Positions 4,186 through 23,858 of a DNA stretch of 31,431 nt are shown here, one piece after another. The DNA comes from a virus: positions 1 through 31,431 of the IMG/VR virus record IMGVR_UViG_3300021962_010117; one strand, 5' to 3'. Under the pieces are notes generated by a model. It searched no databases, was not told the DNA's origin, and saw only the letters and a list, made by a program, of their open reading frames with translations. Numbering within the stretch: position 1 is the stretch's first letter; every line of letters starts with the position of its first letter. The translations under genes and the position numbers were made by a program.

Positions 4186-4191
4186 GTTGTA

Positions 4192-4972: not shown

Positions 4973-4995
4973 AGCGTGCTCGCTGGGTTGGGGGT

Positions 4996-5032
4996 AAAAA
5001 ATCCCGCCAAGGCCGTGGCCCGGACGGGATTT
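4996..5032 (-). terminator. Rho-independent terminator after the zinc-ribbon gene
   Basis: On the minus strand AAATCCCG and CGGGATTT form an 8-bp stem, with GGCC pairs inside the loop, followed by a run of T (TTTTTT from about 5001). It sits between the FmdB-like gene (ends 5051) and phoH (starts 4972), so it closes the ligase transcript. Confidence 0.85.
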
Positions 5033-5050
5033 GAATAGGACGGAGAGTCC

Positions 5051-5317: not shown

Positions 5318-5325
5318 ATTTTTAT

Positions 5326-5505
5326 TTATCTTTCGTAGTTTTCTGCGACACGATGTACTGTGTCACGTACCCATTGCAACAACAACACCGCAGATTCATT
5401 CCCTTGAACCAAACGTTCAATGTTGTCTATCTCCTCATTCAAGTCTGTCACAAAATACTGAATGCGGTTTCTTAATTCTTCATAGTATTCTTCATGCGGT
5501 TCCAT
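5326..5505 (-). CDS. Small acidic helical protein, 59 aa, unknown
   Basis: An ATG at 5505 preceded by AGGAGGATAT gives a strong ribosome-binding site. The 59-aa product starts MEPHEEYYEELRNRIQYF and continues with a predicted helical, acidic middle (LNEEIDNIERLVQ), then LLLQWVRDTV. It ends TAA at 5326. The Shine-Dalgarno overlaps the ligase stop TAG, so it is probably coupled to the ligase. The composition fits a small coiled or helical adaptor. I recognise no family. Confidence 0.8.
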   Translation of the reverse strand: MEPHEEYYEELRNRIQYFVTDLNEEIDNIERLVQGNESAVLLLQWVRDTVHRVAENYER

Positions 5506-5513
5506 ATATCCTC

Positions 5514-6833: not shown

Positions 6834-6861
6834 AATCTAACACATCCTGAAAATTTGTCAA
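6834..6861 (-). promoter_or_regulatory. Sigma70-like promoter for the ligase operon
   Basis: TTGACA (6861-6856), a 16-bp spacer, then TAGATT (6839-6834), about 25 bases before the ligase ATG. The carbamoyltransferase stop TGA is embedded in the -35 box. Confidence 0.75.
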
Positions 6862-8312
6862 GCCCAAACTGGTACGTTATATGTGGTTTCAAATTGTTTG
6901 GCATCCACCAGATTGTTCACCATAGGCTTCCCTTTGATGTTCAAACTGGTGTTCAGCACCATAGGACAACCAGTTTCTCTATACCATTCCTGAAGAAATT
7001 CATAGAAGTAGGGAGAATCCGCCTTGGATACTGTTTGCACTCTGGAAGTTCCATCAGCATGAATAATGGCAGGGAAGGCTAATGGATGTTTGCACATGGC
7101 TGTGTATTGCATATACGGACTTTCTGCTGTAGGCATATGAAAATATTCATGTGCATGTTCCGCTAGAATGGCGGGAGCAAACGGCCGAAACTTCTGTCGT
7201 TTCTTGATGGCATTCACCTGGTCTTTGATGTCATCACCACGTGGGTCTGCCAACAAACTTCTGTGTCCTAAAGCTCTGGGCCCGAACTCAGCTCTTCCAA
7301 ATGCCACACCGGCAATTTTATCTTTTTTTAATGACTCAATCAGTTGTTCAGTGGGGTATTTGATTCCAATGTCATGACCCAGATATGGACCACGCCAATT
7401 TAAAAATTCCTGTTGATGTGCTGCGATGGCACCTAAGCTGTTACCTGCATCTCCTGGATTGGGCATGATCCAGACACGTTCAAAATACTGAAAGGCGATA
7501 CTATTGGCGACGCAGTTCAAGGCGCACCCTCCGCCTAACACCAGATTTTTGCTGCCTGTTAACTTTTTGGCTTCATCTAGTAAATCATGAAATGACATTT
7601 CATAGATGAACTGCGTAGCAGCGGCAATATCATACATATCCTGTTCAGTGGTCAGTTCAGGACGCCACCACATGCATCCACGATGTAGATTCTGATTCAG
7701 TTTCAGAATATGCCTGCTATCAAAAAAATCTTCCAGAATCATGGCAGTATATTTCAGTGGGTCACCGTATGCTGCCATGCCCATCAAGATGTATTCTTCT
7801 TCATTAGGTTTCAACCCAATGCGTTGTGTCATGGCTGAATACCACAACCCTAAACTATGTGGATATTTGATGGAGAACTTCTTCTCCAACTTGGTTCCCT
7901 TGCCGTGCCAAATTGTTGTGGTATCAAACTCACCGATAGCATCAATCACCAGCACAGCAGCCTCGTCAAAGTTACTGGTATAATAACCTCCGGCTGCGTG
8001 ACTATGATGATGGTCCACAGTAACTACTGGTGCTGTAATACCATAGTTCCGAACATATTGTTTGGCATTGTTGTTCACCCATCCTTGCCCTGCTCGGAGC
8101 TGACGTAGTGACTTCATGAGAGGTTGCTCATACCAAACCACCTCATCAGGTTCACCGTATCTATAGGCATCTGCCACAATATCAGCATTCAGATGAGCAT
8201 CATTCTTCACACCTGAGTATCGCTCTGATTGTGAGGCAAACAATATTTCATTGTCTTGCACCACAGTGATAGCGGCATCATGGCTGTTAGCGGAAATTCC
8301 CCATATTAACAT
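6858..8312 (-). CDS. NodU/TobZ-family carbamoyltransferase
   Basis: A 484-aa O-carbamoyltransferase-like enzyme, last gene of the long operon. These enzymes use carbamoyl phosphate and ATP to carbamoylate a sugar or nucleoside hydroxyl. The Kae1-like N domain shows GISANSHDAAITVV (5-18), the metal-binding VDHHHSHAA (99-107) and GGGCALNCVANS (260-271). The YrdC-like C domain shows FGPRALGHRSLLADPR (343-358) and KFRPFAPAI. It is somewhat short at the C terminus compared with typical members. The ATG at 8312 overlaps the preceding stop as TAATG and has GGAG upstream; an in-frame ATG at 8342 lies inside the neighbour and is less likely. Phage carbamoyltransferases are known in DNA base hypermodification, but no cytosine-modifying partner is visible here, so a sugar substrate is equally possible. 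Confidence 0.93.
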   Translation of the reverse strand: MLIWGISANSHDAAITVVQDNEILFASQSERYSGVKNDAHLNADIVADAYRYGEPDEVVWYEQPLMKSLRQLRAGQGWVNNNAKQYVRNYGITAPVVTVDHHHSHAAGGYYTSNFDEAAVLVIDAIGEFDTTTIWHGKGTKLEKKFSIKYPHSLGLWYSAMTQRIGLKPNEEEYILMGMAAYGDPLKYTAMILEDFFDSRHILKLNQNLHRGCMWWRPELTTEQDMYDIAAATQFIYEMSFHDLLDEAKKLTGSKNLVLGGGCALNCVANSIAFQYFERVWIMPNPGDAGNSLGAIAAHQQEFLNWRGPYLGHDIGIKYPTEQLIESLKKDKIAGVAFGRAEFGPRALGHRSLLADPRGDDIKDQVNAIKKRQKFRPFAPAILAEHAHEYFHMPTAESPYMQYTAMCKHPLAFPAIIHADGTSRVQTVSKADSPYFYEFLQEWYRETGCPMVLNTSLNIKGKPMVNNLVDAKQFETTYNVPVWA

Positions 8313-9148
8313 TATTTCCCATCTCCTACAACATATTCCCATACTTTAGGATCTCCCAAATATTGCATCTCATATTTTTCTGGTGGAATAGAATTTATTA
8401 AATGAGGATGATTATGAGAAATTAAGTTAAATAAGCGTTCAGCTAACATATCATACCCTTTTTCATTTGGATGACCACACCACGCTACTGTATCTAAATC
8501 TGAGTCTGTAATAAATCCGTGTAATATGCCATGATGTTCTGGATACATTATAGCTCGAGCAGCATTTAAACTTGAAGAACTTTGCATGAAACTATCCAAA
8601 TATTGACCTTCATCAGCAGCCACATTGATATACAAAAAATTATAATTAGATAACCGACATAGGTTTTCTATCACACTTACATAAAAGTAACTTTCTAAAC
8701 AACTATCTTTAATACCATCCCCTAAAAAATTTATGTAACTTTCAGATAAATTTTTATACACTGGTGGTAAACCACTGAAATTTGTTAGTATGGAAGAAAT
8801 TTCACTATTTCTATAAAAACTTATTCTGGTAGAAAATGTAACCATCCATAACACCAACACATCATATTCTTCAGAAAGATTTTTATTGGAAAATCTTTCA
8901 ATCCATTTTTTCACGGACTCAGAATTTGCTGTGCCACCTTTACCTAAATTCCACATACAATCATATTGTAATTTCTTTTGCAATTTGGCAGGCCATCCTT
9001 CAGAATGAAATCTGTCCCGACTTAATCCGTACATATTCACATTATTTGAATTTATAGGTTTACCTTTTTCATCTAACAATGAGGGTTCGTAACATCCTAC
9101 ACCTTCAGTAAAAGAACAACCTAACGTTATTAAAAGTTTCTTTTTCAT
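8312..9148 (-). CDS. SGNH/GDSL hydrolase-like protein 1
   Basis: A 278-aa protein with the SGNH-hydrolase pattern: block I LITLGCSFTEG with Ser12, a glycine block GKGGTANSESV, and a C-terminal HPNEKGYDMLAERL block with His in the expected place. Asp of GDS is replaced by Cys (GCS). These folds often act as esterases or acetyltransferase partners on glycans. The ATG at 9148 overlaps the upstream HAD gene as ATGA, so it is chosen over the in-frame ATG at 9169. It is one of four such proteins in this operon, and the sequence is strongly A+T rich. The true substrate is unknown. Confidence 0.8.
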   Translation of the reverse strand: MKKKLLITLGCSFTEGVGCYEPSLLDEKGKPINSNNVNMYGLSRDRFHSEGWPAKLQKKLQYDCMWNLGKGGTANSESVKKWIERFSNKNLSEEYDVLVLWMVTFSTRISFYRNSEISSILTNFSGLPPVYKNLSESYINFLGDGIKDSCLESYFYVSVIENLCRLSNYNFLYINVAADEGQYLDSFMQSSSSLNAARAIMYPEHHGILHGFITDSDLDTVAWCGHPNEKGYDMLAERLFNLISHNHPHLINSIPPEKYEMQYLGDPKVWEYVVGDGK

Positions 9149-9477
9149 AATTCTTCTGGCCTCATGCATTTATCATCAATCAGCATATCATAATGAAGTT
9201 TTCCCATTACTAATTGATGGTGTTTTACCTTCCATGTTTGTAGTTGATTTTTTGTTAGTTCATATAAATGTGAGTAGACTAAAGAGACATTCCCTTTAAA
9301 ATACGACATACCACGTGCTGTGTAAATGATTATATGATGGCCTGCATCATACAAGGCATTAATTTTCTCAATATTAGATAACATAGGGACGCAATGGTGA
9401 TATTTAACCACACCTAAAGATTCTACTTCTCTAGGACGAAAACATAGTGTATCATCCAAATCCACAGCGTATATCAT
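9145..9477 (-). CDS. Small HAD-superfamily phosphatase-like protein
   Basis: A 110-aa HAD-fold protein. The nucleophile motif is VDLDDTLC (Asp6 and Asp8), motif II is IIIYTARGM (about 49-57), and a GKLHYDMLIDDK segment at 92-103 provides the acidic motif. The short form without a cap domain resembles phosphatases found in capsule and sugar-phosphate clusters. It would dephosphorylate a small phosphorylated intermediate (inference). It is joined to both neighbours by ATGA overlaps, so it is firmly part of the operon. Confidence 0.85.
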   Translation of the reverse strand: MIYAVDLDDTLCFRPREVESLGVVKYHHCVPMLSNIEKINALYDAGHHIIIYTARGMSYFKGNVSLVYSHLYELTKNQLQTWKVKHHQLVMGKLHYDMLIDDKCMRPEEL

Positions 9478-10403
9478 AAATTAGTCATAGTTAAAATTTT
9501 TTCCTGCAGCATCCCTACAATATTTATGTTTGGTAGATTTAATCTATCATAATTATAATGACCACAAATTTTAAAGTATACACCTTTTGTGGACAAATCA
9601 TGTTCATCGGTTACCCACTTTTTCCAAAGACCAGAATCATAACATATCCTATCAGCTTCCATCAACTGATTCTCAGTGAAATGCTGAAGATACATATTGT
9701 TTTCAAATATACTTAGTTCCGGACCTATGTTGATGGAGGTTAATCCTGCTCTAAATCTAACTTCACGTTGTTCTTTGGATAAAAAATCACCATTATGTTC
9801 TTTGGTTTTCTTTCCAAAAACACCACATAGTTCAATTTCATCTTGAAGTTTTTTGAGACTGAATTTTCCTATATTTTTTTCATTAACTACATCTAACTTA
9901 ACACCGGACTGTATCACAACATATTCTATTTGTTTAAATGCATGGGGATTCAGCCTTTGTTGTAGCATTTCCATAAACCATTTTAAATCTGTGGCTGACA
10001 TTGGAAAAATCGCTTCTTCCGTGCCAACTTCAATGGTACAGAAAGGATTTTTTTCTAAGATAAAATTAATATCTTGTATTGTTTTTTCCAATCCCTCTTC
10101 CATACTAGAAACCGTTTTCCAAGGATCCACGTGAATTGAATTCATAAACATGGAATCAACTAGATAAGAAACTTTTCCATCATCTTTCCGTTTACCTTGT
10201 CCTCCACCGCCATGGTCACGCTGTATATAAAATTCATTACCAACATATTCACGAAAAGTTTCAGTATTCCAACCTGTATATCCACCGTCATAATCCACTT
10301 GCCTTCTGGATGGTAGGAACCCTATTGCTGGATTTTTTAATCCTATCACAGCATCCACAATGTTTTTAGACATTGGACAGAGAAAAAATGTAATATCATT
10401 CAT
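9474..10403 (-). CDS. TIM-barrel aldolase-like protein (family uncertain)
   Basis: A 309-aa protein. Conserved-looking stretches are FLPSRRQVDYDGGYTGWNT (29-47), YIQRDHGGGGQGK (59-71), NSIHVDPWK (88-96), CTIEVGTEEAI (122-132) and late SINIGPELS. Motifs placed at strand ends like this suggest a TIM barrel that binds a sugar phosphate. The IEVGTEEA and RDHGG segments recall the GatZ/KbaZ tagatose-bisphosphate aldolase group, but I am not sure of the match. It lies between a HAD phosphatase-like gene (ATGA overlap) and an SGNH-like gene (8-base overlap), which supports a sugar role. The coding call is secure; the function is tentative. Confidence 0.8.
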   Translation of the reverse strand: MNDITFFLCPMSKNIVDAVIGLKNPAIGFLPSRRQVDYDGGYTGWNTETFREYVGNEFYIQRDHGGGGQGKRKDDGKVSYLVDSMFMNSIHVDPWKTVSSMEEGLEKTIQDINFILEKNPFCTIEVGTEEAIFPMSATDLKWFMEMLQQRLNPHAFKQIEYVVIQSGVKLDVVNEKNIGKFSLKKLQDEIELCGVFGKKTKEHNGDFLSKEQREVRFRAGLTSINIGPELSIFENNMYLQHFTENQLMEADRICYDSGLWKKWVTDEHDLSTKGVYFKICGHYNYDRLNLPNINIVGMLQEKILTMTNL

Positions 10404-11046
10404 TTTGTGTTATAAACTCATACATTAAAGTAGATAGTTGTTCATGTCCTTTAGCATTAAAATGCCAATCTTTGTTAGGTACCAACCAGTAATCTGGATT
10501 ATTCTCAATCCAATTCCTCCAATTGTAGTCTCCATTTGGTTGAACTATGAGATTGTTAACATCATCAATTTCATCACAATTATCCATCAACCACGTGTAC
10601 ACCTGAAATCCAAATTTTTGCAAAGTTTTTATCTTGGTTTTCCATCTATGCTGGTTGAACAATACAATATCTTCTGGTTTTTTTAAATAATCCACACATT
10701 CTTCACACTCTGTATAGAAATTAAAAGCATTAGGTATTATATTTTCTGTGAAGTTGTCTTTTTCAAATTCTAGTATGTTGATTCTGGAAAACATACTAGG
10801 AGATATAATGATTGTATCCTCCAAGGACCAATTAATTATATCTTCATCTATTCTGTAATTTATATAGTTCCAACCAACTCCCCCTACAGCCTTACCTATA
10901 CAATGTAGATTGAGTTTTTCTGCCAAATGAGTTCCCCAAAAATCTATTCCTTGGTAATCTCGGGTTCCATCTTTATTGGTTTTGATTGATTTGGCAATAC
11001 CAAAAGGTTCACTAAAACTGCATCCATACACCCATAAGTTATTCAT
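10396..11046 (-). CDS. SGNH/GDSL hydrolase-like protein 2
   Basis: A 216-aa protein with block I WVYGCSFSEPFG at its start, a glycine block GKAVGGVGWNYI, and a terminal DWHFNAKGHEQLS block supplying the Asp-x-His pair typical of SGNH hydrolases. As in the copy at 8312-9148, GDS is changed to GCS. The start at 11046 overlaps the upstream gene's end by 8 bases and has AGGAAC upstream. An in-frame start at 11130 would overlap the neighbour much more and add residues unlike the family. Substrate unknown; probably an ester or acetyl group on the product of this operon (inference). Confidence 0.8.
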   Translation of the reverse strand: MNNLWVYGCSFSEPFGIAKSIKTNKDGTRDYQGIDFWGTHLAEKLNLHCIGKAVGGVGWNYINYRIDEDIINWSLEDTIIISPSMFSRINILEFEKDNFTENIIPNAFNFYTECEECVDYLKKPEDIVLFNQHRWKTKIKTLQKFGFQVYTWLMDNCDEIDDVNNLIVQPNGDYNWRNWIENNPDYWLVPNKDWHFNAKGHEQLSTLMYEFITQNE

Positions 11047-11647
11047 ATGTTGTTCCTGTATATAACCAGTATTGTGCTTTGGCTTGTTCTTGAAATATTT
11101 TAAAACCAAATGGTGTGGATGGTCTGGCATCTAGAATATTTGGGTGTGATAAATTCACAGGGGTGGCGTTGAATACTACTCCTGTAGTAGGTATCACATC
11201 TTGTCTATTTAACACCGTGAATTCAATACTTAGTTTGTCACAAGCATATTGTACAGCTCTACTGAATCCTCCTTGACCATAAATGTATAGATGTTGTAAA
11301 TTCATACCTCTCAAAACCTCACATACACCCACCCAGTCTGTGTTATATCCCACCCATCCCCGCTCATCACGAATCACTGTGTTAACCGCTCCTATGGTTG
11401 CAGCTACATCATCAATATAGTCTAAAAATGGTATTACGGATACCTTATGTGGTTTGGAGAAGGCGGCACCTTGAAAATTCATCAGATTCATAATGCTCAT
11501 GGCGTCAACTGTTTCTAGGCATTTGATAGGTAAATAAATGGCATTTAAACCAGCCTTAGAGAAAGCTTCATTGAAAAATGTTGCTCCATTGTTTCCTGGA
11601 ACCTCAGAAAAAGAACCAAAAAGTTTAGTTGAGGTGTTGATAACCAT
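11039..11647 (-). CDS. Shikimate-dehydrogenase-like oxidoreductase (HI0607-type)
   Basis: A 202-aa protein of the shikimate dehydrogenase superfamily. It lacks the usual HSxSPxxHN motif and instead has EVPGNNGATFFNEAF, like the HI0607-type SDH-like group. It keeps AFSKPHKVSVIPFLD, the IGAVNTV segment with the catalytic-region Asn, GYNTDW, and the nucleotide-binding IYGQGGFSRA. It is shorter than AroE (about 270 aa). In this setting it may oxidise or reduce a cyclic polyol or sugar-like intermediate and not serve aromatic amino-acid synthesis (inference). The start at 11647 overlaps the fusion gene by 23 bases; an ATG at 11698 is also in frame but overlaps more. Confidence 0.82.
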   Translation of the reverse strand: MVINTSTKLFGSFSEVPGNNGATFFNEAFSKAGLNAIYLPIKCLETVDAMSIMNLMNFQGAAFSKPHKVSVIPFLDYIDDVAATIGAVNTVIRDERGWVGYNTDWVGVCEVLRGMNLQHLYIYGQGGFSRAVQYACDKLSIEFTVLNRQDVIPTTGVVFNATPVNLSHPNILDARPSTPFGFKIFQEQAKAQYWLYTGTTYE

Positions 11648-13529
11648 GTAACAATTCCAAAGATTTAAACCATAACAGTTTGGCAAAATTTTCTTCATGC
11701 AGCGGCGCCATATTCAAAAATATCACAGCCATGATGAATTTTATCACATAATACGGGTGATTGTTTTCTTGTAACCAAGTTTCATATTGTTTCAAAACTG
11801 CTGGGCCATCAGGAATCTTGAAATTCACAAATGTTTCACCTTCATGAAGAACAATTTCATCATCGTTCTTCATCTCATCATACGGGATGTGTATACCCCC
11901 TAACATTTTGGCTAAATCATAATGTAAATCACCAAGATGCGTGTTGCCTGCAAAATCTGTTCTCCAATCAATATAAACAAATTCAGAATCTTTATTTTGA
12001 ACTAAATTAGCAAAATGCAAATCACCATGAAATTTACTGTACATGGGATTGTTTTCTAGCAATCGGTAGTTGATACTGTTTAATACACTTTCCATAGAAG
12101 GAAGAGCTGTTCCATTCACTGTCCACGGTCTGGTGTAGTACTTAGTTCCAAATTTGTTTACAAATTGTTGAACTCGTTGTTGTGTTTTCGTTATATAGAA
12201 TTTTTCCAATTCTTCAGGTAGAATATTTCGTTCTACGCTAACATTACTTTGAACAAAGTGTAGTAATTTTGCGAAATTTTCTGAAGTTAAACCTTCATAA
12301 AGATTGTGTCCTTCTATCCAAGGATAACATAGAAAATACTTTCCTATAAAAGTGTTTGTGGGTGCAACACTCTGTAGGTACTCATATCGTTGTTGTAAAT
12401 TACTTAACACTTTGGAATTTCCAAAAAATTTCAAAAATTTGTTTTGCACTTTGTAAGAAATTTGTGCGCTATCCTTGTTTAATGACAATTGGGCATCATT
12501 GAAATGTTTAACGGCTTTCTTATAGTCATCAACATTTCCTGTATCAAACCAATTTATTTTTCTGGCTTTCAATGATGAAAATTTTTCAGGATTTTGAAAT
12601 GCACACACAAGTTCACCATGTGTGATGTTAGCAGCCAACTCTTTCCAAAAGACCTCATGGTCTTTAATGGCAGCTAAACCAATGAATGCCAAGTTGAATC
12701 CTGATTCTGATTTATTTTTGAACTCGGTAACATTATAGTTATCATCACATAACACAGTGGAATATTTTTCAGGATAGCCAGTTTCATCTACCCCAACCCA
12801 ATTTGTTTCTAAACCTGGTATGACATCTTGCACCAAGCAATCACCCATAATAACATAGAAAGGACGATTCAGATGATGGCGGGCACATAGGGCACTGTAA
12901 CCAGGACCAGAATGCTCACTTTGATAATCATCAACATCCACAAATGTGATATTTCTATCTGGATGAATTAAATTACAGTATTCTCTGATAACATCTCCTT
13001 TATAACCTAATGCAATGATGACTTCATACTCCAAAGGAAATGATTCAATGATATGAGATAGTATAGCTTTGTTATTTACTGGCAACAAGGTTTTATTGGT
13101 GTGTTCAGTAAGTTGATGCAACCTAGATCCCAGACCAGCACACAAAATCAATACTGCAGGTGTTTCATGTTCGGCATCAATTTTTCCATCTGGACGATTG
13201 GTATCATCTTCAACACGAACTACATCATCAACATGAGGTGTGGAAACTTCTTGTACAATAACATCTGTCAATGCAATAATGCGGTGTTTTTTTGGAGGAT
13301 GAACTGTTACATAATCGCCTTCTGTATAAATCTTCTTTTCTATCACTCCTTCAGAATTTTCCAACCACACTTCTGCGGTACCTGACACAATGAAAGATGT
13401 TTCCACTTTTTCATTGTGATACTGCAAAGATGTTTTATGCCCAGCATTGATATGAATTCTTTTGTAGCAGTAAAATTCATTTAGTTCTAGCCAGATTTCT
13501 TTTCCCCAAGGTTTATAGACAGTTTTCAT
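11625..13529 (-). CDS. Three-domain fusion: cupin, sugar-phosphate nucleotidyltransferase, small-molecule kinase
   Basis: A 634-aa protein with three recognisable parts. Residues 1-105 form a cupin like type II mannose-6-phosphate isomerase (KPWGKEIW, SLQYHNEKVETSFIVSG). Residues 125-345 form an NTP transferase (LILCAGLGSRL at 128-138, Lys146 in TNKTLLP, FYVIMGDC at 224-231). Residues 370-634 form an aminoglycoside/choline-kinase-like phosphotransferase (HGDLHFANL at 501-509, YIDWR at 519-523, GDLHYDLAK). This would phosphorylate a small alcohol or sugar and then activate it as a nucleotide derivative, like the LicA/LicC pair. In ManC/AlgA proteins the cupin is C-terminal; here it is first and a kinase is added. 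There is no clear Shine-Dalgarno at 13529. Confidence 0.9.
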   Translation of the reverse strand: MKTVYKPWGKEIWLELNEFYCYKRIHINAGHKTSLQYHNEKVETSFIVSGTAEVWLENSEGVIEKKIYTEGDYVTVHPPKKHRIIALTDVIVQEVSTPHVDDVVRVEDDTNRPDGKIDAEHETPAVLILCAGLGSRLHQLTEHTNKTLLPVNNKAILSHIIESFPLEYEVIIALGYKGDVIREYCNLIHPDRNITFVDVDDYQSEHSGPGYSALCARHHLNRPFYVIMGDCLVQDVIPGLETNWVGVDETGYPEKYSTVLCDDNYNVTEFKNKSESGFNLAFIGLAAIKDHEVFWKELAANITHGELVCAFQNPEKFSSLKARKINWFDTGNVDDYKKAVKHFNDAQLSLNKDSAQISYKVQNKFLKFFGNSKVLSNLQQRYEYLQSVAPTNTFIGKYFLCYPWIEGHNLYEGLTSENFAKLLHFVQSNVSVERNILPEELEKFYITKTQQRVQQFVNKFGTKYYTRPWTVNGTALPSMESVLNSINYRLLENNPMYSKFHGDLHFANLVQNKDSEFVYIDWRTDFAGNTHLGDLHYDLAKMLGGIHIPYDEMKNDDEIVLHEGETFVNFKIPDGPAVLKQYETWLQENNHPYYVIKFIMAVIFLNMAPLHEENFAKLLWFKSLELLHGYQHLN

Positions 13530-13535
13530 AATATA

Positions 13536-13661
13536 TTAATGATAGATGTATGGATCTCGCTTTCTCATTTCCTTCAAACGGCGCCGCAATCTAATTTTTC
13601 TAGTAATTTTACCGAAAAGTTTTTCAATAATAAAAAATTTTATAGATTTAATCGTTAACAT
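13536..13661 (-). CDS. Small basic protein, 41 aa, unknown
   Basis: An ATG at 13661 with AGGAG seven bases upstream, overlapping the end of the SGNH-like gene by 14 bases and ending TAA six bases before the fusion gene. The product starts MLTIKSIKFFIIEKLFGK, then becomes very basic (KIRLRRRLKEMRKR) and ends YIYH. The layout is a short hydrophobic stretch followed by an Arg/Lys helix, which could be membrane-surface or nucleic-acid binding. No family recognised. The good ribosome-binding site and exact fit in the gap support it as real. Confidence 0.7.
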   Translation of the reverse strand: MLTIKSIKFFIIEKLFGKITRKIRLRRRLKEMRKRDPYIYH

Positions 13662-14448: not shown

Positions 14449-15272
14449 TGTGTTAACTCCAGTTTCATCCATGTATCTATACTTTCTTTAGATAAATTCT
14501 TATGGGTACCTACGAAAATATTGTTATAATAGGTTTCCCACCAAATTTGACTATCTTTTTTGTACTCATCAAATGATTTATCAAATTTTAAATGACTATT
14601 ACTACGTACTATACACCAATCTTCAATTGGTAAATTGTGTATCCATTTATACAATATACCACAATGTTTTGCTAAAAACTTGTGAGTGTCAATTATATTA
14701 GGAGGTTGTAAGCTATAAAATTCCTCTAATGGAATATTTTTTAGCTTTATGATAGTGTTCTGACCACCCACATACATCAAATCTGACAAGTTTTCAGTTT
14801 CACTTAATAATTGCATTTGACCAAGCGGTAATGAATTTATTGCATACAATATGTCATCAGACTTTTGTAATTTTGTTTGAAAAAAATCTGATAGTATCTT
14901 TTCATCAAATTGTAAACCTAAATCTGGACGTACCATAACAACAACATCATAGTTTACACCTGAATCTTCTAACATCTGTATAACAGTTTTCCACAAAAAA
15001 ATCATGGCACCGCATGAGTACATTTTATCAGTATTAAACTGACAGGAAGTGTATTCTATTATTTTATAGGACGTTGGTGTAATATACTGTAGAATATCTT
15101 GTTCTGTTACATTTTTTAGTATAGGAGGTGTATTTCGGTTTTGATTTATATGTAAAGTTTTATCCCAAGTTGCAAAATACACATCAACATTAGGCCATGT
15201 TAAAAAAGCCCAAAGTTTATGAGCCACAGGAAATTCTCTGTATTCTCCAGAAACCAAAAGGGCTATTCTCAT
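14445..15272 (-). CDS. Glycosyltransferase-like protein A
   Basis: A 275-aa protein starting MRIALLVSGEYREFPVAHK, with a later YDVVVMVRPDLGLQF segment. The short start, the R-xx-R style turn and the RPDL motif match a group of putative GT-A-like glycosyltransferases often seen in phage and surface-polysaccharide clusters. The gene at 16129 (LSGQPRTIKY and YDFVFRATYQG) appears to be a distant relative. The start at 15272 lies one base after the preceding stop. The family link rests on motif shape only. Catalytic activity, sugar donor and acceptor are unknown. Confidence 0.65.
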   Translation of the reverse strand: MRIALLVSGEYREFPVAHKLWAFLTWPNVDVYFATWDKTLHINQNRNTPPILKNVTEQDILQYITPTSYKIIEYTSCQFNTDKMYSCGAMIFLWKTVIQMLEDSGVNYDVVVMVRPDLGLQFDEKILSDFFQTKLQKSDDILYAINSLPLGQMQLLSETENLSDLMYVGGQNTIIKLKNIPLEEFYSLQPPNIIDTHKFLAKHCGILYKWIHNLPIEDWCIVRSNSHLKFDKSFDEYKKDSQIWWETYYNNIFVGTHKNLSKESIDTWMKLELTQ

Positions 15273-15273
15273 G

Positions 15274-16110
15274 TTATTCGTATCCAAACATCTTAATGTG
15301 GTCAATCAATCGTAAAGCAGTATCTTCATGTCCCCCATCACCGGTATGTAAGCATGGTGTAGGCCATTTTTTTGTTAGCTCACCCCATGGTTGAAAAAAG
15401 AAATCTGTTGGATTCTGAACATAATCTTTATAACCCGTATCTTGACTTAAGATAATACAATTTATACCTTGTTTTTTTATTTTAGTATAGGTCTTTAAAA
15501 TTACACCCATGTCGTAATCTCTTTTCATTTTACTATTCACTACATTCATGTAGTAATTGTAAATCAGTTCTATTTTTTCAATAGGTTCTGAATGCATTCT
15601 TTTGTACCACTTTAAGTTAACTGGAATACCTTCAACATTTGCATCAGGATTTTTAGTGGCTGTGGCTTTTTTATAAAGTTTTATATATTCATCCAAAGCC
15701 ACAACCTGCTCACTTAATATTTTAGGTTCATAATTCTGGTTACCTTGCATATAAAACGGCATAGGTTGTTCATGATGTGGCTCTGGAAACAAATGAGGGG
15801 GATATAAGTGATAATTTATGTACTCAGCTTTTGGATTTTCATGGTATGGAATCTCTTCCCCTTCGGATACCCATTCTATACGGTCGTAGCTGGTGATACC
15901 TAAAATAACAAGGTGAGGCTTTGGGTTCATGCCAGCCGCATACGCACCTTGTAAGTGAGTTGCATAATTACTGGAACTTCCTCTAGCCAAACGAATACAA
16001 TCCCAATCAAAATGCTTAGCAACCATAGGCCCATATGGTTTAGTGTATAAATCAGTGCATCCTATACCATAGTTGAAACTGTCACCACATACCACTATAG
16101 TTTTTTTCAT
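15274..16110 (-). CDS. SGNH/GDSL hydrolase-like protein 4
   Basis: A 278-aa protein starting MKKTIVVCGDSFNYGIGC (Ser11 in a GDS block), then RLARGSSSNYATHLQ, VILGITSYDRIEW and a C-terminal HTGDGGHEDTALRL that supplies the Asp/His-type block. The central part, about residues 100-200, is an insertion with many His and Pro residues (PPHLFPEPHHEQP). It lies between the two glycosyltransferase-like genes. Start at 16110 by position after an 18-base gap from the upstream gene; Shine-Dalgarno is weak (GAGACG). Substrate unknown. Confidence 0.8.
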   Translation of the reverse strand: MKKTIVVCGDSFNYGIGCTDLYTKPYGPMVAKHFDWDCIRLARGSSSNYATHLQGAYAAGMNPKPHLVILGITSYDRIEWVSEGEEIPYHENPKAEYINYHLYPPHLFPEPHHEQPMPFYMQGNQNYEPKILSEQVVALDEYIKLYKKATATKNPDANVEGIPVNLKWYKRMHSEPIEKIELIYNYYMNVVNSKMKRDYDMGVILKTYTKIKKQGINCIILSQDTGYKDYVQNPTDFFFQPWGELTKKWPTPCLHTGDGGHEDTALRLIDHIKMFGYE

Positions 16111-16128
16111 AAAATCGTCTCGCAGATA

Positions 16129-16896
16129 TTAATTATAACAATGAGATTGTATTTCTTGATAATCAACTATCCCATCTTTTGGAATCATTTCCTTCCTATA
16201 ATTAGTAGTTATGACCATACCTCCATGGAAATCCAAGTTATATCGTTCACAACATTGTTCGGATAACATAGTACCTGGTCCTAATATAGCTCGGTCATCA
16301 CCACGTATTTCGTTATAGCGGGGATAAAAATACTTATAAAAGTCACAAAACACATCCATAGCTGTTGAAGAGCCATAAAAACAATGGTCGCTAATGTTTA
16401 TGCGGTTGAATTCTTGATACATACGATTTCTAAAAATACCATAAATGTCCAAGTAGTTATCTTTGTTTGGTAACCCTGTTGGATCAAACTGTCTTTCAGG
16501 CCAATATATTCCTTGATATGTAGCACGGAATACAAAATCATAACGAAAATTATTGTCCCGCTCAAACACTTTTTTGTAATGATTCGCCATCATCATGGAA
16601 TAGAATAATGAAGACCATTCAGCAAACAAAGGTAGGTCCTCCTTTTTCTCCACTACAACTTTTTTTGGAGATAATACATTCATTGCTGTGTGAAACTCAT
16701 TCAAATCCACAGGAGTGTCAGGTTCCCACCAAATATGATTTGCACTATCAGACCCAATTTTTTTTCTTTTATACGTGTTGTAATCCCAAGCATGACAAAA
16801 GTAATCAGTGTCATGATTGGAAAAGAATTTCTTGATGTTATCAACCGTGTATTTTATAGTTCTAGGTTGACCGCTTAAACATACCGCGATTTTCAT
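16129..16896 (-). CDS. Glycosyltransferase-like protein B
   Basis: A 255-aa protein starting MKIAVCLSGQPRTIKYTVDN, a recognisable opening of putative phage and surface-polysaccharide glycosyltransferases, with YDFVFRATYQGIYWPE in the middle and DHCFYGSSTAMDVF after it. It looks distantly related to the product of 14445-15272. The start overlaps the upstream gene by 35 bases, and no other start gives the conserved opening. It is probably soluble, since no membrane segment is seen. Donor and acceptor are unknown. Confidence 0.7.
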   Translation of the reverse strand: MKIAVCLSGQPRTIKYTVDNIKKFFSNHDTDYFCHAWDYNTYKRKKIGSDSANHIWWEPDTPVDLNEFHTAMNVLSPKKVVVEKKEDLPLFAEWSSLFYSMMMANHYKKVFERDNNFRYDFVFRATYQGIYWPERQFDPTGLPNKDNYLDIYGIFRNRMYQEFNRINISDHCFYGSSTAMDVFCDFYKYFYPRYNEIRGDDRAILGPGTMLSEQCCERYNLDFHGGMVITTNYRKEMIPKDGIVDYQEIQSHCYN

Positions 16897-17485
16897 AATT
16901 TACACACTCCGTTTTCAGCTTGTAATTCTTCAAAAAATTATAGAAATATGTATGGTCATTCATTAATCTGTCTTTAATTGAATTCATAGGACTGTTAGAC
17001 AGATGCAAATCATTCTCTTTGGCAACGGTGCTTTTTACTAAACCATAATTAGCGGCTATACTAAAAGTGCTAGAATCCGCATAAAAAATCACAGGGTTCA
17101 TTGTAGTTTTGTACTTTTCTACTAATTCTCCTAGACAATAATAGACGGTATCAGGTTTGATATTCAACAATTCTTTAGCACGAATAAACAACTGTGATTG
17201 AGTTTTTTCTGTGAACTGATTTATAATAACAGTGTCATCCAAATTGATAGCAATCACGACACGAAAAAATTTCTTGGTTGTAAGTTCCATATCCATTTTT
17301 GTTACAGAACATTTCCACAGATTGAAATATAAATCTGGAGTGGAAGTATCCACACAAAAATTTACAACAGGTAAATCAAAATTTTCCTGCCAGGATCTAT
17401 TAATATGAGTTACTAACTCTGGGTTATGAAATGTCCCATAGTAACAAACACAAAAATCATTGGGGGATATATTCACCTGACTCAT
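16862..17485 (-). CDS. Unknown protein, possibly related to the glycosyltransferase-like pair
   Basis: A 207-aa protein starting MSQVNISPNDFCVCYYGTFH. The start at 17485 follows GGAGG with an 11-base spacer and overlaps the radical-SAM gene by 29 bases; an in-frame ATG at 17503 is also possible. The opening beta strand followed by a turn and HINRSW resembles the start of proteins A and B at 14445 and 16129, and NLDDTVIINQF and VIFYADSSTFSI sit later at strand-like positions. No motif is decisive. It ends TAG inside the start of the next gene. It is part of the same coupled run, so a role in the same pathway is likely. Confidence 0.75.
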   Translation of the reverse strand: MSQVNISPNDFCVCYYGTFHNPELVTHINRSWQENFDLPVVNFCVDTSTPDLYFNLWKCSVTKMDMELTTKKFFRVVIAINLDDTVIINQFTEKTQSQLFIRAKELLNIKPDTVYYCLGELVEKYKTTMNPVIFYADSSTFSIAANYGLVKSTVAKENDLHLSNSPMNSIKDRLMNDHTYFYNFLKNYKLKTECVNYENRGMFKRST

Positions 17486-18902
17486 AATGAGTGATTCCTC
17501 CATCTCTGAAATTATCTAATACTGTAAATGTCTTTTTAACCTGTAAGGTATCATACCACTCGACTAAAGAATCAGGGAAAGTGGTTCGGAAGTTTTTACC
17601 TCTACGATTGTCATACTGTGTGTAAAAACTTTTGAAATCATGGTGAAGAGCTTGCTTGTCATTGGTCGTGGTGTTGTGTCCCTTTTCCACCACCTCAATG
17701 TAATCTATCAGGCGTTCAATTTGTGCCTTTTCTCCATCCACAAGATAAGGGCTATCCATATGAGTTTCATACCAAGCTTTAAGCTTCTCCCGTACTTCAT
17801 TTTTTAAATGGTCTGGTAGCGCCAAAGGGCTCATGAAACTTGGCCAACGTAAAATGTTCAAATCAATATGTGGCTTATGATGCCCATATTTTGCTTTTAA
17901 TTCCATCATATCATCCAGAAACTCTGTGATGCTGAATAAGCACAAACTGTTAATAGTCATCATGATGGTGATGGCACGATGTCTAGCATTTTCTATGAAG
18001 TAGATGAGATTGTTTTTCCAACGTTCGTATATTAATCCATCGCGGATGTATTCTGCTTGTATTCCAAAAGCTTCATTACTAGTATACAAATCCAATTCTT
18101 TGATGGGAAGGTCATGCGTCAGTTTCACAACTTTTTCCAAGAGTTCCTGGTCCATGCCTAAATTGGAATTGATTGCAAAACGAAGATTGGGTGACGGATG
18201 TTGCTTCATCACTTCCACAAATTTCCAGAAATTATGACTTACTGAAGCTTCTCCGCCTGTCACACGAATTTCTTCGAGGCTCTGAGATAATTCTGGCCAC
18301 CAGCGAAGAAAAGCATCCACATAAGGATTATCATCAGAGTGTTTGCCGAAAGGTTCTGCCCAAGAACCATCTGATTGATAGGCACCACCCCCTTCTGAAA
18401 GAAAATTCTGATAAGGTCCGTGATTTTTCAACTCTTTACTCCACGTGGTACTGTATCCTGCATTACAGTAACTACAAGCAAAATTACAAGTTCTATCAAA
18501 ACTTATTTCCACAGTTTTCAGCAATACATCATCTTCCCAATTAGAACCCCATAGCTTAGCAATATCTAGAATATCATAAATTTGACTTTTATATACTCGG
18601 TCGGACACATTATTTCTGCCAATATCTTCAATTTTCCAACAATAAGAACATTCAGCAGGCCGTACCCCAGTGAGCATCATCTTGCGCATCTGTTTCTTAT
18701 GTTTGGTGTTATGTATGGCTGATGGGTTATCTTTGATTTCTTCCAAATCAATGGGATGAGGTAGTGGGAGGTGGCAAGAGCCAGAATAACCAGCACCTAA
18801 ATGAATGCTGGCATTATACCATTTGGCTGCACAGAAGCTTGGACTGATGCTGTTTAGGTATTTTTCTCTCCAATTAACTAAATCGTCAGCTGCCTTGGTC
18901 AT
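17457..18902 (-). CDS. Radical SAM protein 1 with an N-terminal four-cysteine site
   Basis: A 481-aa radical S-adenosylmethionine enzyme. The cluster motif is CNFACSYC (Cys139, 143, 146), followed by VTGGEASVSHNF (the GGE SAM-binding motif) and NINSNLG-like INSNLGMD. Before the core, Cys24, Cys43, Cys85 and Cys88 (PSFCAAKW, SGSCHLP, ECSYCW) have exactly the same spacing as in the next gene and may bind a second Fe-S cluster in the style of twitch-type radical SAM proteins. The C-terminal part has DNRRGKNFRTTFP, also shared. It directly abuts the paralogue at 18903. The reaction is unknown; such enzymes do dehydrogenation, epimerisation or C-C/C-S bond formation. Confidence 0.92.
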   Translation of the reverse strand: MTKAADDLVNWREKYLNSISPSFCAAKWYNASIHLGAGYSGSCHLPLPHPIDLEEIKDNPSAIHNTKHKKQMRKMMLTGVRPAECSYCWKIEDIGRNNVSDRVYKSQIYDILDIAKLWGSNWEDDVLLKTVEISFDRTCNFACSYCNAGYSTTWSKELKNHGPYQNFLSEGGGAYQSDGSWAEPFGKHSDDNPYVDAFLRWWPELSQSLEEIRVTGGEASVSHNFWKFVEVMKQHPSPNLRFAINSNLGMDQELLEKVVKLTHDLPIKELDLYTSNEAFGIQAEYIRDGLIYERWKNNLIYFIENARHRAITIMMTINSLCLFSITEFLDDMMELKAKYGHHKPHIDLNILRWPSFMSPLALPDHLKNEVREKLKAWYETHMDSPYLVDGEKAQIERLIDYIEVVEKGHNTTTNDKQALHHDFKSFYTQYDNRRGKNFRTTFPDSLVEWYDTLQVKKTFTVLDNFRDGGITHYESGEYIPQ

Positions 18903-20393
18903 TTAATCTGCCTCATTCAGGAAAGTGTTTTCTGTATCATTCACCAACTTCATGCATTCATGAAAAAATTCTGTGTATTCAGGAAAGGTTTCAAGAAAAT
19001 TGGTGCCTCGGCGGTTGTCATATTCCAGGACATATTCAGCAAATTGTTTTCTTAAAAGGTTTCTTTTTTTCCTGCCTGGGCGATTGATTTCATCACGCAT
19101 AGTGTAGTATAATCTTTCAATTCTGTTCATCTCGTAATCAAAAAAGCCTTTTCCGCATAAAGGACGCCAATTAGTCTGCTGGAGATTGAGGAATCCAAAC
19201 GTGACAATTTCTTCAATATAAGAAAGAAATTCTGCAGGTAAAACCCACGCTGCTAAATGTTCTGGCCAGCGAACATAAGCAATATCTAAAGATACTGGGT
19301 GTTTTCGGACAGGTTGTATTGTGTATTGGTGTTTCATATCAATAACATCTTGCATCATTTTTTTGAATGTTGTGACACTAAAAATGTTGAATGCCGCCAT
19401 GATGGTCAGATGACTGTCAGGAATATCTGATAGTATTTTATGACAATTTTTCAACCATTTATCATAATTCAATCCAAATCTGCTGTATTCCGCTTGTTTT
19501 CCATGAGCTTCATTACTGGTATATAACTTGAACAGTTTCACAGATTTGTTTTGTTGAATGATTTTCATCTTTTCCACAAACTTATCAATGATTTCATCAG
19601 GCGCGCCCAGATTGCTATTAATGTTTAGTTCCAAATTTGGTTGAGGGTTTTCAATAATGTAATCCAACACACGGAAAGTATGCTTAGACAACAAAGGTTC
19701 ACCGCCAGTGATTCGGAACACCTTTAATCCTTGGATCAATTCAGGCCACCATTGCCAAAAAGCATCAATGTAAGGATTTTCTTCAGATTGTAGAATAGGT
19801 AACACATTGTTTTGTTTCAACCAACCCAAATCATGCATTGTGTTGTGTGTTAGTTGATAGGGACCATGTTGTTTTATTTCTTGCTGCCAAGTTGTAGAGT
19901 AGGAAGGTGAACAGTAGGAACATTTAAAATTGCATGTGGTATCAAAGTCCACTTCTAGATACACAGGATTGAAATCCCCTGTATATCCCACCTCTCGGAT
20001 TTTTTCCAAATATGGGAGTGACCAAATTTCTGAGCTTTTGGTGATTCTATCACTAAACACCATGTTCTCATCAGTTTTTTTCATGCTATCTTCCACACGC
20101 CAGCAATAATCACACTCAGCAGGACGATCCCCACTTAGCATTTTTTTTCTTTGTTCCTTTTTGTATTCTGTGTTGTGCAAAGCCTTAGGATTGTTTTTCA
20201 ACTCCACTAATGGAATCTTGTGGGCTGCAGGATGATGGCAGCTATGTGTGGTTCCTGTCGCTAGATGTAAGGTCACTTGCGACCATTTTGCCAAACACAT
20301 GCTAGGGCTTATGGTATTTAAAACTCGCAGACTTTCTTGAAATCTAGGTCTGCTATCTGCACCTGTGAAAAACTCGTCTCCATACACGGTCAT
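18903..20393 (-). CDS. Radical SAM protein 2 with an N-terminal four-cysteine site
   Basis: A 496-aa paralogue of the previous protein. The cluster motif is CNFKCSYC (Cys154, 158, 161), followed by ITGGEPLLSKHTF and NINSNLGAPDE. N-terminal Cys33, Cys52, Cys94 and Cys97 (PSMCLAKW, HSCHHP, ECDYCW) have the same 19/42/3 spacing as in protein 1. LYTSNEA and DNRRGTNFLETFP are common to both. The start at 20393 overlaps the methyltransferase-like gene as ATGA. A tandem divergent pair suggests two successive steps or a heterodimer (inference). The substrate is unknown; context suggests a sugar-like or peptide-like intermediate. Confidence 0.92.
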   Translation of the reverse strand: MTVYGDEFFTGADSRPRFQESLRVLNTISPSMCLAKWSQVTLHLATGTTHSCHHPAAHKIPLVELKNNPKALHNTEYKKEQRKKMLSGDRPAECDYCWRVEDSMKKTDENMVFSDRITKSSEIWSLPYLEKIREVGYTGDFNPVYLEVDFDTTCNFKCSYCSPSYSTTWQQEIKQHGPYQLTHNTMHDLGWLKQNNVLPILQSEENPYIDAFWQWWPELIQGLKVFRITGGEPLLSKHTFRVLDYIIENPQPNLELNINSNLGAPDEIIDKFVEKMKIIQQNKSVKLFKLYTSNEAHGKQAEYSRFGLNYDKWLKNCHKILSDIPDSHLTIMAAFNIFSVTTFKKMMQDVIDMKHQYTIQPVRKHPVSLDIAYVRWPEHLAAWVLPAEFLSYIEEIVTFGFLNLQQTNWRPLCGKGFFDYEMNRIERLYYTMRDEINRPGRKKRNLLRKQFAEYVLEYDNRRGTNFLETFPEYTEFFHECMKLVNDTENTFLNEAD

Positions 20394-20986
20394 AATTTGT
20401 ATCCTATAGTCATATACCTGGTAAACTGTTTACAATCCAACTCACCTTCATATTTAGTCGTACTCAAAACATTCATTTCCTGAAATTGTTTTAAACTATT
20501 GGAACATCTAATATGTTCCGGGCAAGAGAAAAAATTATTTCCTTGCAAAATTACGGGGAGAAATTTAGGCACGTTTTCTATCCAGGTGTTAAAAGTATCC
20601 TGTGTTATATGCTCAGTGCTGGTGTTTATCACCAAAGAGGGTCTTTCTGCGAAAGAAAATGTTTTCATATCAGAGGTGATGAATTTAACATCAGGATTCA
20701 ATTTTTCACCTATACGTTTTGCTTCAGGATCCAGGTCAACACTGTATACTTCATTAATGTGTTTGTATTCATCTCGTAACATACCACCTAAAACACCAAA
20801 CCATCCTCCAAAAATGTACACTGAACCATAACAGGACATATTTAAATCATTTAACACATTCAAGATCCATTGCTTGCTGTTTATTTGACTCTCCCAGAAA
20901 CTTTCCAGTACCCTATACTGTTCTTTTCCTTCAGTTTCCCGAACTACATTCATCCATTGAATCACTCGTTCATTTTTCAACATCAT
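20390..20986 (-). CDS. SAM-dependent methyltransferase-like protein
   Basis: A 198-aa protein with a Rossmann-like start: SVYIFGGWFGVLGGML (glycine loop), VYSVDLDPEAKRIGEKL (acidic end of strand 2, ribose-binding Asp), FITSDMKTF, and LVINTSTEHI in the position of the motif IV loop. This is the class I methyltransferase plan, although the glycine loop is unusual (FGGWFG). ATGA overlaps link it to GMP reductase upstream and radical SAM 2 downstream. It may methylate an intermediate, or bind SAM without methylating. Moderate confidence in fold, low in substrate. Confidence 0.78.
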   Translation of the reverse strand: MMLKNERVIQWMNVVRETEGKEQYRVLESFWESQINSKQWILNVLNDLNMSCYGSVYIFGGWFGVLGGMLRDEYKHINEVYSVDLDPEAKRIGEKLNPDVKFITSDMKTFSFAERPSLVINTSTEHITQDTFNTWIENVPKFLPVILQGNNFFSCPEHIRCSNSLKQFQEMNVLSTTKYEGELDCKQFTRYMTIGYKL

Positions 20987-22002
20987 CGCACCGTGTATTG
21001 TTCTAAGCTACGATTTAATTGAGTGTTAACTTGTATGAATTGTGCCTTGTGAGTCATTTCAGCCACGTTGTTGGCGCCAATATAAGCACAAGTTGAACGA
21101 ATTCCACCCAAAATGTCAGAAATGGTGTGTTCCACCAGTCCTTTGTAAGGGATTTGAACTACTCTACCCTCGGAAGCACGATATTTCTTCACTTGATTGT
21201 GTCGCTGTTGGGCTGCATGACTGCTCATCCCGTAAAAAGTGACTTTTCCATCACGAATTTCCTGTTCTGACTCATCATGACCAGCAAAAACACTACCGGC
21301 CATCACCATTTTGGCTCCCACAGCCAGTGCTTTTGAGAAATCTCCAGGAAAAACACATCCTCCATCACTTTGCACTCCACCACCCACCTCTTCAGCGGCA
21401 GGAACACACTCCATGAGAGCGGAAAATTGAGGATATCCTACACCTGCCACGCGCCTAGTAGTGCAAACAGCGCCTGTGCCAATGCCAACACGGGCCAAAT
21501 CAGCTCCTGACATGATGCAACGTTGAACTGCTTCAGGTGTCACCACAGTTCCAGCCATGATGAAGGCATCTGGAACACATTCTCTAACCTTTGCAATGAA
21601 ATCATAGAAAGGATTCATGTATCCATTAGCCACATCAATGACAATTTTCGGGGTGAAGTTGGAAATTCTATCCTTCCATGTACTAATAATGGCATCTGCT
21701 TGGTTCAATTCACCATCATTCATGCCAATGGTGATGAACGCATGGCTCACATCCTGTTGATGCACCCAATCTGCCAAGGTGTGATGCTTGGTGATGGCAG
21801 TGAATGCACCAAATTTCTTCAAGGCATGATGCATGCTGAATGTGCCCACACCATCCATGTTGGCAGCAATCACAGGAACACCAGTGATGGATGCTCCCCA
21901 ACGACCTGAAATCGTTGTGGATACATCCACCTGGCTTCTGGAAGTGATGTCAGAGAATTGTGGAACTATCAACACATCATCAAAATCCAACTTCACTGTC
22001 AT
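20983..22002 (-). CDS. guaC: GMP reductase
   Basis: A 339-aa enzyme of the IMPDH/GMPR family that converts GMP to IMP with NADPH. The catalytic loop is VGIGTGAVCTTRRVAG with Cys180. SDGGCVFPGDFSKALAVGA and VMAGSVFAGHDES follow, then EGRVVQIPYKGLVEHT and DILGGIRSTCAYIGA, which match GuaC well. The TKHHTLADW segment is GMPR-like, and there is no CBS domain. With the PurA-like gene at 26482 it could turn host GMP into IMP and then an adenylate precursor, useful for an A+T-rich phage genome (inference). It stands at the head of the long coupled run; I see no clear promoter in the four bases upstream. Confidence 0.93.
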   Translation of the reverse strand: MTVKLDFDDVLIVPQFSDITSRSQVDVSTTISGRWGASITGVPVIAANMDGVGTFSMHHALKKFGAFTAITKHHTLADWVHQQDVSHAFITIGMNDGELNQADAIISTWKDRISNFTPKIVIDVANGYMNPFYDFIAKVRECVPDAFIMAGTVVTPEAVQRCIMSGADLARVGIGTGAVCTTRRVAGVGYPQFSALMECVPAAEEVGGGVQSDGGCVFPGDFSKALAVGAKMVMAGSVFAGHDESEQEIRDGKVTFYGMSSHAAQQRHNQVKKYRASEGRVVQIPYKGLVEHTISDILGGIRSTCAYIGANNVAEMTHKAQFIQVNTQLNRSLEQYTVR

Positions 22003-23833: not shown

Positions 23834-23858
23834 AACACCTCACTTGAAGTCATACTGT

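Follow-up and report, generated by a model that had tools for sequence, protein, structure and literature searches.

The IMG/VR virus record IMGVR_UViG_3300021962_010117, whose full 31,431 bases we call the window, carries between positions 6858 and 20986 a block of glycan genes whose content is replaced in its close relatives. We favour, with somewhat better than even confidence, the view that a phage, probably T4-like, carries this block as a replaceable glycan cassette and that the core of the block is a conserved activated-sugar pathway, probably serving a virion protein. The block belongs to a run of 16 open reading frames (ORFs) on the minus strand that fills positions 6858-22002; neighbouring ORFs nearly all overlap or abut, and the widest gap is 118 bp (13529-13648). 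In order of transcription, the run encodes a GMP reductase-like protein, MT (methyltransferase-like), the radical SAM proteins SAM2 and SAM1, a protein of 213 amino acids, GT2 (glycosyltransferase-like), SGNH4, GT1, SGNH3, CNK (a cupin-nucleotidyltransferase-kinase fusion), AROE (an AroE-like dehydrogenase), SGNH2, TIM (a TIM-barrel protein), HAD (a phosphatase), SGNH1 and CARB (an O-carbamoyltransferase). Most of the block has a guanine-cytosine (GC) fraction of about 0.32-0.38, lower than the 0.42-0.45 of its surroundings.

A replaceable cassette between conserved flanks

Two close relatives, G2 (contig G002, 76 kb) and G3 (contig G003, 28 kb), share both flanks of the block with the window. 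On one side all three have IscA-PurA-NadR-UvdE-amidase-GMP reductase, the GMP reductase at 95% in G2 and 86% in G3; on the other, ligase-zinc ribbon-PhoH-exonuclease is kept at 78-94%. Between these flanks G2 and G3 have MT (45-48%), SAM2 (57-58%) and CARB (92% and 88%, respectively) and then other genes, which from a reading of their translations encode GT-like, nucleotide-sugar epimerase-like, SGNH-like and RmlC-like proteins. Pfam adds a 2-oxoglutarate oxygenase (PF13640) and a transketolase match below cut-off (PF02779) in the G2 cassette. DNA similarity between the window and G2 stops at 8313 and restarts at 20981, with a weak stretch in SAM2 between. Because the flanks are kept while the content is replaced in G2 and G3, positions 6858-20986 are a replaceable cassette and the GMP reductase-like gene is part of the conserved backbone. 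Such an exchange of glycan genes among close relatives at one and the same locus is what defines a phage hypervariable glycan island. The G2 counterpart of CARB (window 6858-8342; G2 23389-24840) lies at the opposite end of its cassette, as the third gene.

The initial annotation had described all 16 genes as a candidate biosynthetic operon. The single-strand run of nearly contiguous genes is as it described, and the co-occurrence check that it proposed finds dozens of viral contigs, and some cells, in which the core genes occur together in a fixed order. The operon idea survives as a set of co-occurring genes, in the form of a replaceable cassette built about a module of five functions rather than a fixed 16-step operon. 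GMP reductase drops out of the set: we rejected it as a pathway member, since it sits in the backbone kept by G2 and G3, where it groups with an adenylosuccinate synthetase gene (26482-27507) that PHROG labels as the 2-amino type. The GMP reductase-like protein passes PF00478 (1e-65) and misses the NCBIfam equivalog (366.4 against 397 bits). Together, GMP reductase and adenylosuccinate synthetase could take GMP towards AMP.

Recurrence of the module and its two types

A single-sequence viral scan with CNK gave 5 loci and one with TIM gave none; among isolate phages, CNK and TIM were adjacent in one uncultured marine virus and SAM2 had no match, and TIM against 50,697 phage records gave 5 matches, one uncultured marine virus and four Listeria contigs. 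A viral scan with a TIM alignment found 352 relatives (contigs). Neighbours were counted around the best 80 of these 352, together with locus L003 and the window, making 82 loci that grouped at 90% TIM identity into 60 clusters. Within 2.5 kb of TIM, 81 of the 82 loci have a nucleotidyltransferase-kinase, 77 an EcbF-like HAD and 47 an AroE-like gene; in the one locus without the nucleotidyltransferase-kinase, L125, TIM lies at the beginning of the contig. Counted by cluster, the figures are 60, 56 and 33 of 60. The scan selected by TIM alone, which makes the presence of the partner genes independent of the selection, although the profiles used to detect those partners had been built from module members already known, the window among them.

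The closest copy of the module, L084, follows the order of the window without SAM1: MT (66%), SAM2 (56%), three proteins resembling GT2, a GDSW-motif protein without a match, SGNH4 (30%), CNK (50%), an AroE-like protein (55%), SGNH2 (52%), TIM (64%), HAD (68%) and SGNH1 (48%). Another locus, L012, keeps the order radical SAM (two)-213-amino-acid protein-GT2-SGNH-GT1, with one opposite-strand gene between. Downstream of the module in L103 are proteins that we liken to a large terminase and to a portal protein, which suggests that the module-bearing viruses are T4-like phages. Searches of an open-access literature subset (titles and abstract starts) found no description of the gene set. It could be argued that the block is non-functional acquired DNA carried along by chance, since it is absent from the closest relatives and 'stuffer DNA' is raised for the cyanophage lipopolysaccharide (LPS) clusters in the accessible portion of PMC3037559. 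With open frames, catalytic residues kept and partner genes fixed over 60 diverged clusters, we regard this as very improbable.

The clusters fall into two types. Type I, in which the cupin is fused to the nucleotidyltransferase-kinase and an AroE-like gene is present, comprises 32 of the 60 and includes the window; in type II (26 of 60) the cupin is separate and the AroE-like gene absent. Two clusters (L113 and L153), truncated so that the cupin is out of view, are unclassified. Among classified clusters the association of fused cupin and AroE-like gene has no exception, and it predicts two products. The nucleotidyltransferase-kinases of type I form one clade, with support of 100/100 when the cupin is included and 100/99 when it is left out. 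The TIM tree interleaves the types, with 8 changes for type I, of which at least 6 are forced by well-supported branches. We infer that both types share the step catalysed by TIM, and that the cupin-kinase-nucleotidyltransferase and the AroE-like enzyme set the product.

Versions of the module are also present in archaea, Patescibacteria and other cells. A genome scan with the CNK alignment gave 41 loci, and neighbours were judged on the 16 (L041-L056) that match most of the nucleotidyltransferase-kinase, with 25 partial loci (L057-L081) set aside. A KdsC-like HAD is nearby in 14 of the 16 (L043 among them), a TIM match in 6 (in L056 to part of a protein) and an AroE-like gene in 2, L042 from Thaumarchaeota and L046 from Alphaproteobacteria. 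The thaumarchaeal nucleotidyltransferase-kinase joins the type I side at 100/94, on a long branch; neither of the two in L046 does so. Eight loci (L045, L047, L048, L050 and L052-L055) have the nucleotidyltransferase-kinase and KdsC-like HAD without TIM, often with a C-methyltransferase-like gene, and from its gene content this set in Patescibacteria and others would appear to be an uncharacterised cellular pathway. In L046 (5079-15256) there are two pairs of cupin and nucleotidyltransferase-kinase, one adjoining HAD and TIM and the second adjoining a SIS isomerase, a split transketolase and the AroE-like gene.

Enzyme families and a proposed route to an activated sugar

The features of the block and its flanks, with the evidence for each label, are as follows.

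6858..20986, minus: replaceable low-GC glycan cassette of 15 genes; flanks common with G2 and G3, content replaced; GC drop
6858..8342, minus: CARB, O-carbamoyltransferase of NodU/TobZ/GdmN type; both NodU/TobZ domains over cut-off, PF16861 (E 8e-52) and PF02543 (7e-40); PDB matches
8312..9169, minus: SGNH1, SGNH/GDSL-like; GDSL matches below cut-off; relative in L084 at the same position
9145..9477, minus: HAD, EcbF/BcbF-like phosphatase; PHROG 1238 (2e-26); EcbF-BcbF model TIGR01689 below cut-off
9474..10403, minus: TIM, GatZ/KbaZ-like TIM barrel; structure model and active-site residues
10396..11130, minus: SGNH2, SGNH-like by motif only; 52% relative in L084 at the same position
11039..11698, minus: AROE, compact AroE-like dehydrogenase; PF08501 (shikimate-dehydrogenase substrate domain, 2e-12, over cut-off); best profile match HI0607
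11625..13529, minus: CNK, fusion of PMI-like cupin, nucleotidyltransferase and APH-type kinase; Pfam domains and nucleotidyltransferase fold
13648..14472, minus: SGNH3, SGNH-like by GDSF motif only
14445..15305, minus: GT1, glycosyltransferase-like; PHROG 13607 (E 0.002); recurs beside type I modules
15274..16110, minus: SGNH4, SGNH-like; family in 12 of the 32 clusters of type I and in none of the 26 of type II
16129..16896, minus: GT2, glycosyltransferase-like; PHROG 13607 (8e-12); family in 30 of 60 clusters
16862..17503, minus: 213-amino-acid protein; 28% relative directly before GT2 in L012
17457..18902, minus: SAM1, twitch-domain radical SAM protein; NF033640, 294.7 bits
18903..20393, minus: SAM2, twitch-domain radical SAM protein; NF033640, 314.2 bits; 57-58% in G2 and G3
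20390..20986, minus: MT, methyltransferase-like; PF13649 (E 0.008) below cut-off; 66% in L084
20983..22002, minus: GMP reductase-like gene; backbone flank outside the cassette, 95% and 86% in G2 and G3
3523..6809, minus: the other backbone flank (ligase, zinc ribbon, PhoH, exonuclease); 78-94% in G2 and G3

The structure model of TIM (predicted local distance difference test score, pLDDT, 75) was compared by fold, Foldseek included. Its best matches are the GatZ-type structures 2fiq (Z 26.7) and 3txv (Z 25.3), followed by a tagatose 4-epimerase (9kcs, Z 23.0) and UxaE (Z 22.2), with class II aldolases at Z of 21 or less. According to the accessible part of PMC11907403, GatZ and KbaZ convert fructose 6-phosphate to tagatose 6-phosphate, and a modelled site is proposed for GatZ with zinc on H88, H257 and E171 and D87 as the catalytic residue. 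In a profile alignment to 2fiq (its numbering), D87, H88, E171 and H257 of GatZ correspond to D63, H64, E129 and H203 of TIM, each at least 93% conserved in 66 sequences. A PDB sequence search with TIM alone gave one match, by chance. By fold TIM may be an aldolase rather than an epimerase; fold and residues together make it a probable GatZ/KbaZ-like ketose-phosphate C4-epimerase.

CNK (634 amino acids) matches PF01050 (PMI-type cupin, 2e-10), PF12804 (NTP transferase, 4e-6) and, weakly, PF01636 (APH, 4e-4). Its nucleotidyltransferase fold matches GalU, LicC and HddC (5xhw), and UDP-glucose and dTDP-glucose pyrophosphorylases rank equally high. In the cupin, Q36, H38, E43 and H82 remain as four candidate metal ligands, and the kinase HGD-N and D motif and the nucleotidyltransferase glycine-rich loop are intact, motifs that presumably carry their usual catalytic meaning. 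A profile of AROE finds the shikimate dehydrogenase-like protein HI0607 (1e-55) as its best solved match, ahead of true shikimate dehydrogenases, and the protein falls below the NCBIfam equivalog cut-off for AroE (best model 83.6 bits, cut-off 285). K85 and D121, which we take to be the catalytic lysine and aspartate, are conserved, and with the substrate domain this pair places AROE in the shikimate dehydrogenase-like superfamily. The nearest relatives of CARB in the PDB are GdmN, novobiocin carbamoyltransferase and TobZ, all of which act on small molecules. SAM1 and SAM2 both match PF04055 and pass the 170-bit cut-off of NF033640 (N_Twi_rSAM), a subfamily model whose name states no reaction.

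Most family labels in the initial annotation hold. Pfam profiles confirm the carbamoyltransferase, the shikimate dehydrogenase-like protein and the two radical SAM proteins, the PHROG match bears out the HAD phosphatase, and the TIM-barrel label stands and is sharpened to GatZ/epimerase-like. The cupin-nucleotidyltransferase-kinase fusion does have all three domains in one protein, the APH part being weak. The methyltransferase label has its Pfam match, under cut-off; the four SGNH-like proteins have the motifs, with a sub-cut-off profile match for one of them; and the glycosyltransferase-like proteins belong to a recurrent family in a fitting context, again with no PDB profile match. The chemistry then proposed, taken here as phosphorylation, activation with NTP, oxidation or reduction, and carbamoylation, fits enzyme families with intact motifs.

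On this basis we suggest a route that would begin with TIM inverting C4 of a ketose 6-phosphate, for example fructose 6-phosphate, as its fold and intact active site indicate. The PMI-like cupin, from its family and candidate ligands, would isomerise the product to an aldose 6-phosphate, the HAD phosphatase would take off the 6-phosphate, the APH-type kinase would phosphorylate the free sugar, most likely at C1, and the nucleotidyltransferase, judging by its fold, would yield a nucleoside diphosphate (NDP)-sugar. In type I modules the AroE-like dehydrogenase would add a redox step. The GT-like proteins would transfer the sugar, probably in the cytosol and most likely onto a virion protein, the SGNH proteins would acylate or deacylate it and CARB would carbamoylate it. 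The substrates, product, order of steps and acceptor are our proposal; the analysis itself establishes which genes are there, how far they are conserved and co-occur, the replacement of the cassette, and the predicted folds and residues. A different product, an activated polyol or small molecule such as a CDP-alditol, could be made if the AroE-like enzyme reduced a ketose and a LicC-like nucleotidyltransferase used CTP; LicC is among both the sequence and the fold matches of the nucleotidyltransferase, and a 5-ketofructose reductase is an AroE-like relative. We consider such a product unlikely, since type II modules lack the AroE-like gene, so that the reductase is not general, the UDP-glucose and dTDP-glucose pyrophosphorylases rank as high as LicC, and the PMI-like cupin points to an aldose.

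Several observations count against the proposed activated-sugar pathway. The closest relatives, G2 and G3, are without the module, and profiles of the nucleotidyltransferase-kinase, TIM, AroE, HAD and cupin had no match in either. TIM scores below the PF08013 gathering threshold (16.1 against 26.7 bits), as does its cell relative in L046 (22.6 bits). The model of the CNK cupin is poor, and the nucleotidyltransferase filled the list of fold matches, leaving cupin and kinase unplaced by fold. The SGNH labels come from G[DC]S motifs and a sub-cut-off GDSL match for one of the four, and a profile of SGNH4 and its relatives had no match in the PDB; the GT labels, from a recurrent family and its context, are weak, and the GT profile likewise had no PDB match. 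The route assigns no place to the AroE-like step and no role to SAM1, SAM2 or the 213-amino-acid protein.

More tentatively, we put forward a specific version as a possibility: an undescribed, widespread virus pathway with two interchangeable chemotypes, leading from fructose 6-phosphate by C4 epimerisation and isomerisation to an uncommon NDP-hexose (such as NDP-talose or, in type I, an AroE-modified derivative), swapped as cassettes among uncultured T4-like phages for cytosolic glycosylation of virion proteins, and homologous to a pathway of archaea and Patescibacteria. If right, many viral 'hypothetical' glycan genes would gain an assayable biochemistry, the output of part of the phage hypervariable region would be explained, and an activated-sugar pathway would be common to these phages, archaea and Patescibacteria.

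Related systems, the acceptor and neighbouring genes

Among phage systems that have been studied, the RB69 arabinose module is the nearest relative. In RB69 and other Mosigvirus phages a nucleotidyltransferase-kinase fusion (ORF53_52c) likewise adjoins an EcbF-like HAD and a sugar-phosphate isomerase (for arabinose 5-phosphate), and our nucleotidyltransferase-kinase and HAD profiles both match HX01 and ESCO47 (60.9-63.6 bits). However, that isomerase is a SIS protein, whereas the window has a cupin and a TIM barrel; Pfam scans of the cassette proteins found no SIS domain. The Mosigvirus set has DNA polymerase and UvsX nearby, is accompanied by a gene of the thymidylate synthase family and lacks an AroE-like gene, and its similarity to the window is remote (about 24%). 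The present module therefore looks like the RB69-type activation machinery with a different front end. The RB69 genes have been proposed, in the accessible part of PMC6024577, to supply UDP-arabinose for arabinosyl-hydroxymethylcytosine, a proposal of unproven function. For the related TH1_060 of a Shewanella phage, the available part of PMC12838424 reports no function in vitro and a near halt of propagation on inactivation.

Other comparisons share parts of this picture. E. coli GatZ/KbaZ with a HAD phosphatase, which takes fructose 6-phosphate to tagatose, has the same fold, the same four residues and the same order of epimerisation and then dephosphorylation, although the window TIM is shorter and under the Pfam cut-off, and a kinase and nucleotidyltransferase follow. 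In the GDP-heptose pathway (GmhA, HddA, GmhB, HddC) a sugar phosphate is isomerised, phosphorylated at C1, dephosphorylated and activated. The logic is that of the module, whose nucleotidyltransferase fold matches HddC (5xhw), but the kinase family and the isomerases differ. Variable clusters of glycan genes are also known as the LPS clusters of cyanophages P-SSM2, where phoH is close by, and S-SSM7 (PMC3037559), and as the host-recognition clusters of pelagimyophages, which have radical SAM cassettes (PMC7029224); the accessible portions of these two texts make no mention of a cupin-nucleotidyltransferase-kinase/TIM/HAD module. What is new here is the module variant; phage glycan islands and the RB69-type activation set were already known.

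The initial annotation had also named DNA as a possible target. The sugar or carbamoyl group might indeed modify phage DNA, as in arabinosyl-hydroxymethylcytosine of RB69 or 5-carbamoyloxymethylcytosine: CNK and HAD are related to the set proposed to make UDP-arabinose, and the accessible text of an eLife study describes some phage carbamoyltransferases that act on 5-hydroxymethylcytosine (PMC8670742). In the same portion of that study, however, carbamoyltransferases beside glycosyl transferases belong to unmodified contigs, and those of modified contigs co-occur with thymidylate synthase. PF00303 (hydroxymethylase/thymidylate synthase) is absent from G002 and G003, both of them fragments (the window was not searched), and is present in 6 of 24 module-bearing records, possibly fragments, several of these matches being weak or partial. 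CARB, moreover, is closest to carbamoyltransferases of small molecules. A DNA target is for these reasons disfavoured, and we think it quite improbable. Modification of DNA with 7-deazaguanine was rejected as well, QueD (PF01242) and FolE (PF01227) each occurring in 1 of 10 records and in none of the window, G2 and G3. The window does encode a QueC-like protein (23874-24434).

Multi-pass membrane proteins, defined by a hydropathy count as proteins of at least 200 amino acids with at least 5 membrane segments, are absent from all 60 phage loci (1,222 genes) and present in 9 of the 16 cell loci. Because no phage locus has one, we prefer transfer in the cytosol, onto a virion protein. The sugar may instead be meant for the host surface, the phage altering LPS or some other glycan of the envelope, for instance to shut out rival phages. 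This is the usual interpretation of the pelagimyophage clusters in the accessible part of PMC7029224, and the cyanophage clusters offer a precedent, though the available text of PMC3037559 leaves their function open. The 9 cell modules have around them membrane proteins of the sort usual in envelope glycan loci, and RmlC-like and epimerase families adjoin many phage modules. The lack of such membrane proteins in the phage loci argues against a host-surface role, though the host could supply export, and we hold that role to be a serious but rather doubtful candidate beside the preferred virion protein.

Beyond the cassette, a TonB-dependent receptor-like gene with one in-frame stop (342-3479, minus) lies between the exonuclease and a transfer-messenger RNA (tmRNA). 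Relatives occur in 14 viral contigs at 76-100% identity, some copies being intact, and in G2 the exonuclease region directly adjoins the tmRNA region, nothing lying between them; the gene therefore looks like a true phage-borne insertion. A chimeric contig was rejected for this end of the window, as the adjoining tmRNA is also in G2 and G3 and the receptor is in the 14 viral contigs. The tmRNA is permuted (31-371, minus; RF04321, 113.8 bits), with further copies at L033:14896-15113 and L036:9762-9967, and is apparently phage-encoded, since both relatives have one. At the other end, an ATPase-like gene (30678-31430) has the highest third-position GC among the listed ORFs (0.69), yet is 93% identical in G2.

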